Positions 25,473 through 58,861 of a stretch of DNA of 64,000 nt are shown here, in pieces (position 1 is the stretch's first letter; every line of letters starts with the position of its first letter). The notes under the pieces are model-generated. The model was given only the letters and a program-made list of their open reading frames with translations. It ran no database searches and was not told the DNA's origin. The position numbers were made by a program, and so were the translations under genes. Source of the stretch: an uncultured Pedobacter sp. Lineage in GTDB: Bacteria; Bacteroidota; Bacteroidia; Sphingobacteriales; Sphingobacteriaceae. The DNA is taken from contig NZ_CAJYOJ010000013.1 in NCBI RefSeq assembly GCF_913776295.1, positions 1 through 64,000 of the forward strand, in the 5' to 3' direction.

Positions 25473-26333
25473 TTACTTAATCTGCTTCAGCAAGTAACTG
25501 CCATAGCCGCTTTTAACCAGTGGCGTAGCAATGGCTTTTAATTGTTCTGCATCAATGAAACCCATGCGATACGCAATCTCTTCTATACAGCCGATTTTTA
25601 AGCCCTGACGCTCTTCAATGATGCGTACGAACTCACCAGCTTGCATTAAGGAAGCAAAGGTTCCGGTATCCAGCCAGGCAGTACCGCGGCTCAGTACACC
25701 TACCTTTAGTTTTCCACGCTCTAAATACACCCGATTTACATCGGTAATCTCATATTCGCCACGAGGAGATGGCTTCACATTTTTAGCGATTTCAACAACC
25801 TCATTGTCGTAAAAGTATAAACCCGGAACAGCATAATCTGATTTAGGTTGTTCAGGTTTCTCTTCGATGGAAATCGCTTTTTTGTTTTCATCAAATTCAA
25901 CTACACCATAACGCTCCGGATCTGCCACCTGGTAGGCGAATACGACTCCCCCCTCTGGATTGGTACTTTCCTGTAATAACCTGGACATCCCATTTCCGTA
26001 GAAAATGTTGTCGCCCAAAACTAAAGCTACTTTATCTGTTCCAATAAAATCGGCACCAATGACAAAGGCCTGAGCAAGTCCGTTGGGTTCTGCCTGTACG
26101 GCATAGCTGAATTTACAGCCCAGCGACGCACCATCACCTAATAATTTCTCGAAATTTGGCAGATCGTGCGGGGTAGAGATAATCAAGATTTCTTTTATAC
26201 CAGCCAACATTAAAGTAGATAGGGGATAATAGATCATCGGTTTATCGTAAACCGGCATCATTTGCTTGCTACAAGCCAAAGTTAAAGGATGCAAACGAGT
26301 ACCGCTGCCACCAGCTAAGATTATACCTTTCAT
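25473..26333 (-). CDS. rmlA: Glucose-1-phosphate thymidylyltransferase
   Basis: First step of dTDP-L-rhamnose synthesis. The 286-residue protein has the nucleotidyltransferase start [57 protein letters not shown] and [10 protein letters not shown], all typical of RmlA. It is the last gene of the rmlBCDA operon, after a 72-bp gap that contains a 7-bp-period AG tract. Confidence 0.95.
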
Positions 26334-26340
26334 ATTCGTA

Positions 26341-26375
26341 TTAGATTTGAGATGTGAGACATTAGATTTAAGAAG
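26341..26375 (+). repeat. AG tract with exact 7-bp period (five units)
   Basis: TTAGATT TGAGATG TGAGACA TTAGATT TAAGAAG: the A of an AG dinucleotide falls at 26343, 26350, 26357, 26364 and 26371. It lies in the gap between rmlD and rmlA. Other members of this family are at 37.4, 38.0, 45.0 and 58.8 kb. Confidence 0.75.
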
Positions 26376-33374: not shown

Positions 33375-33617
33375 ATTGTATTTATAATTTATTTAGTTCT
33401 TTTTTAAGAGGGCGCAAGATACAAAATTGCCTTAAAAAAGAAAATACAAAATTTTATTTATCAAGCACCTAATTATTAAGGGGATGGAAGAGGTATGAAT
33501 GGAGGTTGGAAGATGTAAAAATGGTGGGTGGAAGGAAAGAAATTTGGCTTTGAATCTATAGATATTTGGAAGGTTTCCGATTACCTCACCCATCTTACAT
33601 CTCACATGTTGGATTAA

Positions 33618-36370: not shown

Positions 36371-37351
36371 TTAAACAAAAAGAAAATACTGTATAGAAAG
36401 CACAAATAAAACGAACAAAGTTTCATAAAACCAACGTTTTTTGGCATTGCTGAAATAGTAGGCCAGCAGCACTGATCCCGGAGGCACACATAGCAAAAAA
36501 TGCCAGGTCCTGAAATCTGGTTTGAGATAAAAACTGGCGGCAGCAATTATAAACATGAAAAACAACAGCTGAAAACTTTTTCTTGTACTGATAAAACTCC
36601 TGAAGAAATTTTCTCGGAGCTGTAGCGATGCCAATATCATGATTACCGTTACCGGGATGAGCACCAGATAATCATTATAATTGATTTTAAACACAGAAGG
36701 GAACTTATTAGCGAGTGGCCTCCAAATCTGATAAAATGAACTTAAATTGTCATTCCAGTAATAAAATACCGCCAAAAAAAAGAAAACCGTGATAAAACCG
36801 ATTAAACCTGCCACCCACTCGCGCCAGTTAAACGATCTAAAAAGCAACAGTGCTAAAAAGATCATGATCAACATGGCCATAAAGGGAAAGTAGATTAACG
36901 TGCCAACCCCAATAATCATCCCGATATCAAAAATAGTGGTAATGGAATTCGCACTTTTGCCTAGTTTTAAAAACTTATCGATGATCCATATCAATAAAAA
37001 GTTGCATAACAACGCCGGACTAAGGATCATAAAAGGCATAAACAGGCTTGTTCCGGTAATAAACATCAGTCCTGGCAGGAAACTGGGTTTCGCCAATAAA
37101 TTATGGTTGTTTACCACCCGGTTGAAAATTAAAGCCTGTACATAAACCAAGAGTGCCGCAATAAAAATATTGGTGTATGGGGTAAAGGCATGATCTAAAT
37201 CAATATTGATCAGTAAACGCGCAAAAGGTTCTAAAAAATCAAAGTTCAGCTGATCATGCGTTTCCCGAAAAATGGCAATACGTAAAAAGAACGTGTACGC
37301 CAGCAAGAATACGAGGTTAACTGGATTTAGTTTTCTAAACTGATTAATCAT
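36371..37351 (-). CDS. Polytopic membrane protein, DUF6427-like
   Basis: A 326-residue protein with about eight hydrophobic helices, beginning MINQFRKLNPVNLVFLLAYTFFLRIAIF and including FIAALLVYVQALIF, FLPGLMFITGTSLFMPFMIL and FVLSIQYFLFV. This start is characteristic of the Bacteroidota family now called DUF6427, from memory. Function is unknown. It stands alone, 152 bp from coaX. Confidence 0.65.
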   Translation of the reverse strand: MINQFRKLNPVNLVFLLAYTFFLRIAIFRETHDQLNFDFLEPFARLLINIDLDHAFTPYTNIFIAALLVYVQALIFNRVVNNHNLLAKPSFLPGLMFITGTSLFMPFMILSPALLCNFLLIWIIDKFLKLGKSANSITTIFDIGMIIGVGTLIYFPFMAMLIMIFLALLLFRSFNWREWVAGLIGFITVFFFLAVFYYWNDNLSSFYQIWRPLANKFPSVFKINYNDYLVLIPVTVIMILASLQLRENFFRSFISTRKSFQLLFFMFIIAAASFYLKPDFRTWHFLLCVPPGSVLLAYYFSNAKKRWFYETLFVLFVLSIQYFLFV

Positions 37352-37402
37352 GCTTTTTAAAGAGTAGACAAAGTAAAGAAAATAATTTTAGAGTAGGGAA
37401 CA

Positions 37403-37469
37403 AAGATGAAAGCAGATAGGCTAAAGCGGAAAGGTAAAAGGCAAAAGCTTCAAGAGGAAAGTACTAAGG
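37403..37469 (+). repeat. AG tract with exact 7-bp period (ten units)
   Basis: The A of an AG dinucleotide falls at 37404, 37411, 37418, 37425, 37432, 37439, 37446, 37453, 37460 and 37467, all exactly 7 bp apart. Nine of the ten read AAG and one reads TAG; the other bases vary. It is the longest of five such tracts in the window. Confidence 0.85.
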
Positions 37470-37854
37470 GATAATTTATAGTCTGATAATTATAGAATTG
37501 TCAGTCTGAACGGAGTCGAAGGCCGATTGACCGGTAAAAAGCAAAAAGGATAAAAAAGAATTCTTTTGTTTTTGAAAAGCAGATTTCTGTTCTTTTTGGT
37601 TCCGGTAGTCCTGCCATTACCGGGCACATTGCAAAAACCGTTTAAGCTTATATTCTCTGATGTATCTTTCATGGTTAAAAATGTTTGATTTAGCTAAAAG
37701 GTTCTTCACTACGTTCAGAATGACAACTGATTGGTACATTAACACGGAGATCCTTCGGGTTACGCTACCCTTGACAGTTTCAATAGAACGAACCTCATGC
37801 CCGCGCCGGGGGGAACAACGATAGTGTTTAGCGAAGCTAATCTTAATCTCCATC

Positions 37855-38003: not shown

Positions 38004-38048
38004 CTTTGGGCTGTCGACTCAGGACTACAGGCTCTAAACTACCAACTA
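38004..38048 (-). repeat. AG tract with exact 7-bp period, minus strand (seven units)
   Basis: On the plus strand CT begins at 38004, 38011, 38018, 38025, 38032, 38039 and 38046. The last one falls in the TAG stop codon of the glycosyltransferase gene. The variable bases differ between units (CTTTGGG, CTGTCGA, CTCAGGA, CTACAGG, CTCTAAA, CTACCAA). Confidence 0.8.
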
Positions 38049-39035
38049 AACCCTCGCGTATTTCTTCACCATATCATCAATAATCTTGGCGGTTTCATCC
38101 GGAAAATCGAACTCATGTTTTTGAGGGTTTTCCACCCAGTTTTTAACAATTGGCAGCCAGTTACGGGTACTTCCCCAAATTACAGGCAGGCCAAACTGTT
38201 TTAAAGCATAAGCATTACACTGCTGCTCAAACTGGAAACGCATGGGAGCAACCAACAGTTTTTTCTTTAAATAAAGTGCCTCGGCGGGACCTTCAAAACC
38301 ACCGCCGGTAAATAAACCTTCGCAGGTAGCCAGGCTTTTATTAAACTTTTCGTTATTAACGGGCTCTACCAAAACGTTTCCTTCCTGATAAGCAACCTTG
38401 CTGTGTTTGGAAAAAACCTGCCAGGTAATTTCAGGGAGTTGTGTAAAAAGCTTTACCAGGCGTTTATCGTCGATGGCCGGAAGATAGACCGTGTAATGCC
38501 CTAAATTTTCATTTTTCAGGTTCCGGATTTCTGCCCTGATTACCGGGGTATGGATAAAGCTATCATAACGGTCAAAATGGAAACCAATGTGATATTTGGT
38601 GGGCGCATAACGGCTCAGAATAAGTTTTCCCCAATCCAAAGTTCTGGGACGGGGTACTTTTTTTGATTTAAAGGCAGCCTGATGACTTAATGATACAGAT
38701 TCTATTCCCTGCAGTTTACAGGCCCATGCACTTACAGGCTCAAAATCGTTTACAATTAAATTGTAGTCTTTAAGGGGCAGTTGCTTCATGTCTTTCCTAA
38801 AGCGGAAAAGATTCATATTCAACCATGTTTTATAATGGTCTACGCCACCTTTTTTGCCAAAGATAAAACTGAAACCATGTAACTGGTATTTTACGGGCTG
38901 ACTCAATTTTACATCGGCCTGCGTACCGCTTACCAAAATATCCAGTTCGCCATATTTTTGAAGTAAAGGAATAATCTCCCTTGCTCTGCTGATATGACCG
39001 TTACCTGTTCCCTGTATTGCGTAAAGTATCTTCAT
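38046..39035 (-). CDS. Glycosyltransferase of the MJ1255/GT28-like family
   Basis: A 329-residue GT-B type protein. It begins MKILYAIQGTGNGHISRAREIIPLLQKYGELDILVSGTQADV, a glycine-rich loop typical of this group, and the C-terminal half has CEGLFTGGGFEGPAEALYLKKKLLVAPMRFQFEQQCNAYALKQFGLPV, as in GT28-like donor domains. Substrate is unknown. It follows the LpxH-like phosphoesterase gene by 20 bp, so a shared role in membrane lipid or glycolipid metabolism is possible (inference). Confidence 0.78.
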   Translation of the reverse strand: MKILYAIQGTGNGHISRAREIIPLLQKYGELDILVSGTQADVKLSQPVKYQLHGFSFIFGKKGGVDHYKTWLNMNLFRFRKDMKQLPLKDYNLIVNDFEPVSAWACKLQGIESVSLSHQAAFKSKKVPRPRTLDWGKLILSRYAPTKYHIGFHFDRYDSFIHTPVIRAEIRNLKNENLGHYTVYLPAIDDKRLVKLFTQLPEITWQVFSKHSKVAYQEGNVLVEPVNNEKFNKSLATCEGLFTGGGFEGPAEALYLKKKLLVAPMRFQFEQQCNAYALKQFGLPVIWGSTRNWLPIVKNWVENPQKHEFDFPDETAKIIDDMVKKYARV

Positions 39036-44446: not shown

Positions 44447-44477
44447 TTTGAAAGTTTAAAAATAATATTTATATTTG
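44447..44477 (+). promoter_or_regulatory. Consensus promoter ending 3 nt before an ATG
   Basis: TTTG at 44447-44450, then 19 nt, then TATATTTG at 44470-44477. This matches TTTG-N19-TAnnTTTG exactly. The regulator ATG follows at 44481, so the start of transcription would fall at or next to the A of ATG. Confidence 0.75.
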
Positions 44478-44480
44478 ATT

Positions 44481-44987
44481 ATGGAATTGGCAGCAGCGAA
44501 ATTAAAATTTATAGAAGCCTGGGGCAAACTAGGCTCAGAATGGGGAATTAACCGCACCATGGCCCAGGTACATGCCTTATTATTAATTTCTCCTGAAGCA
44601 TTGACCACAGAAGAAATTATGGATGCACTTAGCATTTCAAGGGGAAATGCCAATATGACCCTCCGCGATCTAATTGGATGGGGCCTGATTGAAAAGCAGC
44701 ATAAAGCGGGCGAACGTAAGGAATACTTTTTTGCCGATAAGGATGTTTGGAATATTGCACGTCAGGTAGCTAAAGAACGCAAAAAAAGAGAATTAGAGCC
44801 TGTATTAAAAGTTTTAAATGAGCTATCAAGTGTAGTGGGCGACGAAAAAGATCCGGAATATAAAACGTTTAAAAAATCAGTAAACGATATTAACAAACTT
44901 GCGGTAAACGTTGATAAAACTTTAGAAACGATGCTTAAAGCTGAAGAAAACTGGTTTTGGGGCTCAATATTGAAGGTATTTAAATAA
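44481..44987 (+). CDS. GbsR/MarR family transcriptional regulator
   Basis: A 168-residue winged-helix protein starting at the ATG at 44481; the track used an upstream TTG. It has MAQVHALLLISPEALTTEEIMDALSISRGNANMTLRDLIGWGLIEKQHKAGERKEYFFADKDVW, the helix-turn-helix and wing of the GbsR subgroup, and a C-terminal helix pair for dimerisation. It probably represses its own gene or the DCC/TIGR01777 genes downstream. Its promoter implies a leaderless mRNA. Confidence 0.85.
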   Translation: MELAAAKLKFIEAWGKLGSEWGINRTMAQVHALLLISPEALTTEEIMDALSISRGNANMTLRDLIGWGLIEKQHKAGERKEYFFADKDVWNIARQVAKERKKRELEPVLKVLNELSSVVGDEKDPEYKTFKKSVNDINKLAVNVDKTLETMLKAEENWFWGSILKVFK

Positions 44988-45013: not shown

Positions 45014-45110
45014 GAGTAACTAGCAGTAAGATAAAAGTAGCAAGTATCAAAATAGATTTACTTTATAAGTTAAATGTTAAACCCTAAACCATACACCCTA
45101 AACCTCATCC
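45014..45110 (+). repeat. Two adjoining 7-bp-period tracts
   Basis: First tract: AG with its A at 45015, 45022, 45029, 45036 and 45043 (GAGTAAC TAGCAGT AAGATAA AAGTAGC AAGTATC). Second tract from 45070: TTAAATG TTAAACC CTAAACC ATACACC CTAAACC, also with an exact period of 7. Both lie in the 203-bp gap after the GbsR-type regulator gene. Confidence 0.75.
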
Positions 45111-58178: not shown

Positions 58179-58823
58179 ATGATTTTTGATATCAGCAAGA
58201 CAAAATCTATTGCTAATACCTTCATAGCCGAACTCCGGGATGAACATATCCAAAAAGATGCTATGCGTTTCCGCAAAAATATGGAGCGGCTGGGCGAATT
58301 TTTTGCCTACGAGATCAGCAAATCATTAAAATATGTGGCCCGGGAAACCGTAACGCCATTAGGGGTATCTTCTTGCGAAGTGTTGAGCGAACAACCCGTT
58401 CTGGCTACCATACTCAGGGCAGGGCTTCCACTCCAGCAAGGCCTGCTCAATATCTTCGATAAAGCTGAATGCTGCTTTATTTCTGCTTACCGCAAGGCAA
58501 ATAAAGGAGGTGATTTTATTATTCAGATGGATTACATTTCTACTCCGGATTTAGAAGGAAAAGTTTTGATTATGGCCGACCCGATGCTGGCCACCGGACA
58601 AAGCATGGTGATGTGCTGTAAAGAGCTGATTAACCGCTACAAAATTGCCGAGCTTCATATCGTTGCGGCAATAGCGAGTGCAGAAGGTGTTGCGCATGTA
58701 CGTGCCAACCTGCCTAAAGCCAAACTTTGGCTCGGGGCAATAGATCAGGAAATGACCAGTAAATCTTACATTGTACCGGGCCTTGGCGATGCGGGCGATT
58801 TAGCTTATGGAGAAAAGGTTTAG
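58179..58823 (+). CDS. upp: Uracil phosphoribosyltransferase
   Basis: Pyrimidine salvage enzyme making UMP from uracil and PRPP. The 214-residue protein has the PRPP-binding loop VLIMADPMLATGQSMVMCCKEL, LATILRAGLPLQQGLLNIF and the C-terminal GLGDAGDLAYGE uracil-binding motif. Length is normal. A 7-bp-period AG tract begins 4 bp after its stop. Confidence 0.95.
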   Translation: MIFDISKTKSIANTFIAELRDEHIQKDAMRFRKNMERLGEFFAYEISKSLKYVARETVTPLGVSSCEVLSEQPVLATILRAGLPLQQGLLNIFDKAECCFISAYRKANKGGDFIIQMDYISTPDLEGKVLIMADPMLATGQSMVMCCKELINRYKIAELHIVAAIASAEGVAHVRANLPKAKLWLGAIDQEMTSKSYIVPGLGDAGDLAYGEKV

Positions 58824-58826
58824 GTT

Positions 58827-58861
58827 AGTCCTCAGTCTGGAGTCTTTAGTCCGGAGTCTGT
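58827..58861 (+). repeat. AGTC tract with exact 7-bp period (five units)
   Basis: AGTCCTC AGTCTGG AGTCTTT AGTCCGG AGTCTGT, with AGTC at 58827, 58834, 58841, 58848 and 58855. It fills most of the 52-bp gap between upp and the next gene. Confidence 0.85.

Follow-up and report, generated by a model that had tools for sequence, protein, structure and literature searches.

The window considered here, a stretch of 64,000 nucleotides from an uncultured Pedobacter sp., carries five intergenic tracts in which an AG dinucleotide, or CT on the other strand, recurs at intervals of exactly 7 bp. The longest of them, the focal tract, shares a 694-bp spacer between a DUF6427 gene and a glycosyltransferase gene with the tract at 38.0 kb. 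The initial annotation had placed its four companions at 26.3, 38.0, 45.0, and 58.8 kb, and we found all four there, each between open reading frames. The arrays and the genes beside them are as follows.

25473-26333, minus strand: gene beside the 26.3 kb array
26343..26372, plus strand: array of the AGATNTG class, five AG units, 9 bp from the gene start and directed outward
36371-37351, minus strand: DUF6427 gene
37369..37375, minus strand: TACTTTG, conserved across species of Pedobacter; putative -7 promoter box for the DUF6427 gene
37403..37469, plus strand: focal array, AAAG-NNN class, ten heptads
38004..38054, minus strand: 38.0 kb array, eight CT units, AGTC type with a decayed anchor, eight heptads
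38046-39035, minus strand: glycosyltransferase gene
44475-44987, plus strand: gene beside the 45.0 kb array
45015..45044, plus strand: AG array, five heptads, 27 bp past the gene stop and directed outward
45063..45104, minus strand: TTTAGGG-like array (TAAACCC on the plus strand), facing the array at 45015..45044 within the same spacer
58179-58823, plus strand: UPRTase gene
58827..58858, plus strand: AGTC-NNN array, five heptads, 3 bp past the UPRTase stop, directed outward and solitary

The focal tract consists of ten AG dinucleotides in exact 7-bp steps (37404-37468), mostly as AAG, and its heptads share only three to four of their seven positions, where a perfect microsatellite would repeat all seven. 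It lies 52 bp upstream of the DUF6427 gene start, with its AG strand directed away from that start, and reads CTTT-NNN in the sense of the gene. The array begins just upstream of a conserved leader bearing the motif TACTTTG, a putative promoter box by the general Bacteroidota -7 consensus. At the other end of the spacer, the 38.0 kb array overlaps and follows the glycosyltransferase stop codon in the sense orientation of that gene. Because one is directed off the DUF6427 start and the other off the glycosyltransferase stop, the two tracts are the start-side and stop-side facing arrays of a single spacer. No hairpin was predicted for the focal tract (folding z +0.87), and Rfam returned no family match at or above the gathering score anywhere in the whole window.

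About 540 bp of other, partly repetitive DNA separate these two arrays. They include REP-like palindromic repeats of the type GTCATCCTGAGCG(T)AGTCGAAGGATC at 37501-37525 and 37700-37730, and the same motif occurs in many orthologous spacers (e.g. L125 and L161). The REP and BIME palindromes of enterobacteria are short, intergenic elements found between tandem or convergent genes; they are without a 7-bp unit, and the REP-like palindrome of the focal spacer is a different sequence. Elsewhere in the window, a 22-bp imperfect tandem repeat (TGGAAGAGGTAAAAATGGAGGG, 2.3 copies) lies between genes at 33485-33534.

The tracts are degenerate heptanucleotide tandem arrays of several classes rather than one AG element. 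The classes comprise AAAG-NNN, AAGGTNN, AGTC-NNN, AACTGNA (CAGTTNN on the other strand), AGTATCA, AGATNTG, and TTTAGGG, and in each of them three to five heptad positions are fixed while the remainder vary. The earlier description had only an AG anchor fixed; the anchor has to be redrawn as a class-specific set of three to five bases that includes AG. The genome also contains perfect and near-perfect 7-bp arrays such as GGTTTAG x8 and AAGGTGG/AAGGCGG x9. Perfect arrays of the plant-telomere-like unit TTTAGGG were seen in this genome at L043 8449-8507, L046 2708-2755, and L116 1501-1579. In another Pedobacter genome, an AG heptad array of 38 units (L102 1501-1761) also repeats at a higher order of 21 bp (CAGTTGTCAGTTTACAGTATG).

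We compared the abundance of such tracts with chance in the host genome (5.09 Mb), which was sampled in stretches covering 1.9 Mb in total and whose nearest named relatives, judged by a flanking gene, include P. suwonensis and P. terrae. Stretches fetched regardless of tracts provided samples of 1.54 Mb for AG runs and 893 kb for a lag-7 scan. In 1.54 Mb we counted 44 runs of five or more AGs spaced by 7 bp, against 1 to 3 after shuffling, 0 to 4 at spacings 4-13, and 9 at spacing 14. The column-blind lag-7 scan of spacers of at least 60 bp gave 33 tracts versus 6.8 in shuffled spacers, and 11 versus 1.0 at a stricter threshold; other periods were much nearer the shuffled level, the exceptions being multiples of 7 and, to a modest degree, period 15. 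Phased tracts therefore exceed the shuffled controls that had been proposed as their test, and the exact period, the intergenic location, and the membership in a family all stand. Within the window, anchored runs at periods 4-15 other than 7 never exceeded six. Past the stop codons of 758 gene ends of this genome, AAGG pairs show a minor peak at spacing 8, with 14 pairs compared with 45 at spacing 7.

The distribution beyond this genome is wide and uneven. Matching AG runs occurred in 31 of 41 genomes sampled across the genus and class, with counts from 0 to several hundred inside one genus, and the AG x6 pattern was absent or nearly so from several Pedobacter genomes. Across the phylum, matching runs were found in 98 of 148 genomes and 60 of 82 genera, where a reversed-pattern control was also raised in many genomes, so that these counts reflect heptad arrays generally rather than an AG-specific signal.

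The arrays obey a strand rule that, together with their facing arrangement, is new relative to the initial annotation. Almost always, the AG strand, read 5' to 3', leads away from the gene closest to it, on the stop side and the start side alike. In the 1.9 Mb of this genome, arrays within 30 bp of a stop codon were outward in 40 cases and inward in 2, and those within 30 bp of a start in 23 and 2, with gene edges taken from a simple mechanical ORF caller whose start positions are uncertain. Within 30 bp of any gene edge, 63 of 67 arrays pointed outward; part of the sequence had been chosen for holding AAG arrays, a choice blind to strand. More than 100 bp from a gene edge no strand preference was seen, and in divergent spacers it was weaker (12 outward versus 5 by hand count). 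All five tracts of the window follow the rule. Independent samples gave 21 of 26 near-edge arrays outward in genus and class genomes and 21 of 23 loci outward phylum-wide, orthologues in these polarity counts not being independent of one another. The polarity is the same on both sides of a gene and takes no account of the gene's direction, so transcription is not a sufficient explanation by itself; selection acting against inward-pointing arrays is a possible source.

Orthologous sites show how the arrays change. At the focal site, for which we compared eighty named loci, nearly all from Pedobacter, related species carry CTTT-NNN arrays directly upstream of the conserved leader with its probable -7 box; in these species AGTC-type units immediately follow the same upstream (glycosyltransferase) stop codon. 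In many more distant Pedobacter, the spacer is just 26-27 bp long and array-free. P. borealis and Pedobacter sp. ISL-64 differ here by 14 bp, or two units, and the AGTC arrays of UPRTase spacers differ between orthologues by one or two units plus base changes (relative to L245, L242 has two additional units, and L246, L248, and L249 have one each). These insertions and deletions of whole units are turnover of the slippage type, one of the two processes that the initial annotation had offered. The other, selection on the anchor, has less to go on. Pooled minimal changes numbered 10 in 68 anchor columns and 22 in 51 variable columns (P = 0.0008), in units that were aligned by hand and whose shuffling can mimic a slow anchor. 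The anchor was slower in two of the three orthologous sets and the order was reversed in the third, so selection on it is not established, and constraint on the anchor is no more than suggested.

Among 933 spacers in the 1.9 Mb, 17 have both arms of a facing pair and 79 have one arm. Facing arrays can form imperfect palindromes, whose predicted stem is interrupted about every 7 bp. At rpoB-rpoC, 27 of the first 30 Pedobacter spacers, read by eye, contain two facing heptad arrays of one class, and that class is exchanged between species (at least six: AAGGTNN, AAGCTGA, AGTATCA, GAATGAN, AGATG-type, and AGTTA-type). A hairpin is also present at this position in another 20 genomes, several of which are free of arrays, and its sequence there is mostly non-heptad. 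Against shuffled sequence, the folding z fell below -2 in 48 of the 49 Pedobacter rpoB-rpoC spacers that could be tested (mean -5.6). From these predictions, a hairpin seems to be required at rpoB-rpoC, with heptad arrays being one way of building it, and selection on the structure is likely because the hairpin is so widely kept. In the convergent smpB-pcm spacer, the arms are AGTC, AGTT, or CAGTT depending on the species; z lies below -3 in 17 of 29 spacers, and more distant species are without strong hairpins. In two species (L328 and L331), the outer parts of this spacer enclose a second palindromic element (GGTGTCAGATATTC...ATCTGACACT).

By the same folding predictions, a hairpin is not a general property of the arrays, because array spacers as a group folded no better than other short spacers (P = 0.25), the UPRTase spacers with solitary AGTC arrays did not fold (mean z +0.3), and the focal tract did not either. 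We also compared G.T with A.C mismatches in stems aligned by Watson-Crick pairing only, where pairing in the sense-strand RNA predicts more G.T than A.C. Heptad stems at rpoB-rpoC had no such excess (G.T 48, A.C 47), nor did tandem spacers with arrays in the host genome (21 and 23), compared with 42 and 9 in non-heptad stems at rpoB-rpoC and 86 and 54 in other strong tandem spacers; P values from these counts are optimistic, as the sequences are related. The symmetry in heptad stems, set against the G.T excess in non-heptad stems, points to a DNA-level origin of the heptad palindromes, and it gives no indication of maintenance at the RNA level. Array-free Pedobacter (L301-L320) have a non-heptad hairpin at rpoB-rpoC with many more G.T than A.C, which suggests an RNA-level function in that spacer.

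The explanation that we consider best, with a probability of roughly 0.55, combines turnover by slippage of 7-nt units with the outward laying of polar intergenic arrays by a DNA-level process, the product being mostly tolerated filler. The period, the classes, the outward polarity of the AG-bearing strand at adjacent gene ends, the gain and loss of whole 7-nt units, and the exchange of class at orthologous spacers are observed. The process behind them is inferred: it may be replication or repair synthesis, slipping in 7-nt steps, that extends sequence outward from gene edges, and repair synthesis at breaks between genes is one possible instance. The arrays themselves would be mostly tolerated and not sequence-specific signals. 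Two facing arrays can form an imperfect palindrome, arrays without a complementary partner stay unpaired, and in some spacers, such as rpoB-rpoC, the arrays seem also to satisfy a separate hairpin requirement. A bolder form, which we think improbable, posits a DNA synthesis or repair activity, present in many bacteria, that would extend 3' ends exposed in intergenic DNA by degenerate 7-nt units. Each gene block would thus carry outward-running arrays, and facing arrays would mark spacers where two such ends had rejoined, like telomere-like tails.

Three other readings compete with slippage and DNA-level laying. The arrays could be arms of intergenic RNA hairpins, acting as intercistronic stabilizers or bidirectional terminators under structural selection, with solitary arrays as remnants or half-built hairpins. 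The near-universal folding at rpoB-rpoC, non-heptad spacers included, the use of one class for both arms in its heptad-type spacers, the switching of class in the facing arrays of smpB-pcm, and the 17 two-arm spacers speak for it. One-arm spacers are far more numerous, however (79), and several facing pairs of different, non-complementary classes still obey the polarity. The group-level folding result and the symmetric mismatches of heptad stems led us to reject a general RNA-hairpin role; with the unfolded UPRTase spacers and focal tract, they leave the hairpin account doubtful, though still to be reckoned with. Plain microsatellites that slip by 7 nt and decay neutrally, with polarity arising secondarily as arrays are purged from genes and from the vicinity of promoters, would account for the whole-unit differences between orthologues and for the presence of both perfect and decayed arrays in the genome. 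Heptanucleotides are also reported as the most abundant class of long simple sequence repeats in most genomes (Mrazek et al. 2007, as cited in the consulted sections of PMC4679880). Purging in genes alone, however, predicts no strand preference, whereas nearly all near-edge arrays point outward and the rule holds phylum-wide, which makes this reading unlikely.

The anchors could instead be binding sites, spaced by 7 nt, that an RNA- or DNA-reading protein recognizes, such as Rho or an RNA-binding protein acting on untranslated RNA immediately past stop codons. AGTC, AAGG, and CAGTT arrays do begin a few nucleotides past stop codons in the sense orientation, and the slower anchor in two orthologous sets fits a recognized motif. 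Yet the polarity is the same upstream of starts, where this strand is antisense; anchors vary from locus to locus and, at one locus, from species to species; and several Pedobacter genomes are nearly or wholly free of AG x6 matches. We regard such sites as a long shot, and Rho loading in particular was rejected, as the rut descriptor consists of YC motifs 9-13 nt apart rather than 7-nt repeats (PMC9160355) and AAGG arrays are almost free of YC.

Several further candidates were set aside. Quadruplex formation was rejected by inspection, most classes being without G-tracts. Purine loading of mRNA fits the stop side and fails upstream of starts, where CT is on the sense strand. A diversity-generating reverse transcriptase, with its adenine-targeted mutagenesis, would suit AAGGTNN but not AGTC, AGTATCA, or CAGTT, and was dropped by reasoning only. 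The telomerase-like reverse transcriptase DRT10 makes 9-nt repeats by protein priming, and genomic arrays are not mentioned in the consulted sections of its source; the motif enriched for the RNA-binding protein RbpB is, in the consulted sections of its own source, a 41-nt sRNA sequence and not a heptad.

Heptamer systems have been described before, and the view that no named element of this kind exists in Bacteroidota was too strong, since a few Bacteroidetes are reported to carry direct repeats of heptamers, long arrays among them (PMC4679880). The closest counterpart is in Xanthomonas and Nostoc (PMC4692102; PLoS One 2015). In the consulted sections of that paper, the heptamers GGGAATC and GGGGA(C/T)T, with conserved and variable positions as (GGGANTN)n, are mostly intergenic and lie close to the ORF found 5' of them on the repeat strand, whatever the gene orientation. 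They form many facing inverted pairs, are few between divergent genes, vary in sequence and length between species, and in Xanthomonas are without a leading- or lagging-strand preference; their function is left unexplained, with quadruplexes discussed. The Pedobacter arrays share the 7-bp unit, the intergenic excess (44 versus 1-3 shuffled in 1.54 Mb), the use of the coding strand downstream of an ORF and the non-coding strand upstream (40:2 and 23:2), and the facing inverted pairs (17 spacers in 1.9 Mb; rpoB-rpoC and smpB-pcm). They differ in composition: the same sections describe one G-rich, quadruplex-forming heptamer per lineage, whereas this one Pedobacter genome has many AG-bearing classes, mostly without G-tracts. 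By inspection, runs of three Gs are absent from AGTC, AGTATCA, AGATNTG, CAGTT, and AAAG and present only in TTTAGGG/AGGG arrays. Class exchange at orthologous spacers, as seen in Pedobacter, is not described in those sections for the Xanthomonas and Nostoc heptamers.

The suggested analogy with cyanobacterial heptamers was well chosen. Degenerate heptads with fixed and variable positions occur in Nostoc and Calothrix (PMC4476775). There, degenerate heptanucleotide repeats (TDNGATT and NNTGAGT) build the P6b stem of the tRNA-Leu(UAA) intron and resemble the Pedobacter arrays in their fixed part and degenerate positions, heptad-built stem, replacement of class with the stem kept, and whole-heptad indels. 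They are limited to one group I intron stem-loop, whereas the Pedobacter arrays occupy many intergenic sites and are often unpaired; paired heptad arms with class replacement were seen at rpoB-rpoC and part of smpB-pcm but not at the focal tract or UPRTase spacers. The TAACTGA direct repeats of Beggiatoaceae, Cyanobacteria, and five Bacteroidetes (MacGregor; PMC4679880) are likewise intergenic heptamer arrays, and the Pedobacter AACTGNA class includes TAACTGA-like units. TAACTGA is a single invariant heptamer; in the BOGUAY genome it is mostly placed immediately before start codons, and related heptamers are rare there (PMC4679880). Pedobacter units, by contrast, vary within an array, and many AACTGNA arrays lie on the antisense strand just past stops. 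As cited in the consulted sections of PMC4679880 and PMC4692102, the treatment of long simple sequence repeats by Mrazek et al. 2007 does not cover degenerate arrays, anchors, or polarity.

The Bacteroidota arrays are thus sequence-diverse relatives of the published polar heptamers, sharing their location rule without their G-tracts, and strand polarity at gene edges regardless of gene direction is now seen in three phyla. Because quadruplex formation does not cover the G-poor Bacteroidota arrays, the cause of the polarity must extend beyond quadruplexes. The rpoB-rpoC and smpB-pcm spacers, where the class is exchanged and the facing arrays persist, offer a comparative system for how bacterial intergenic DNA is made and replaced.
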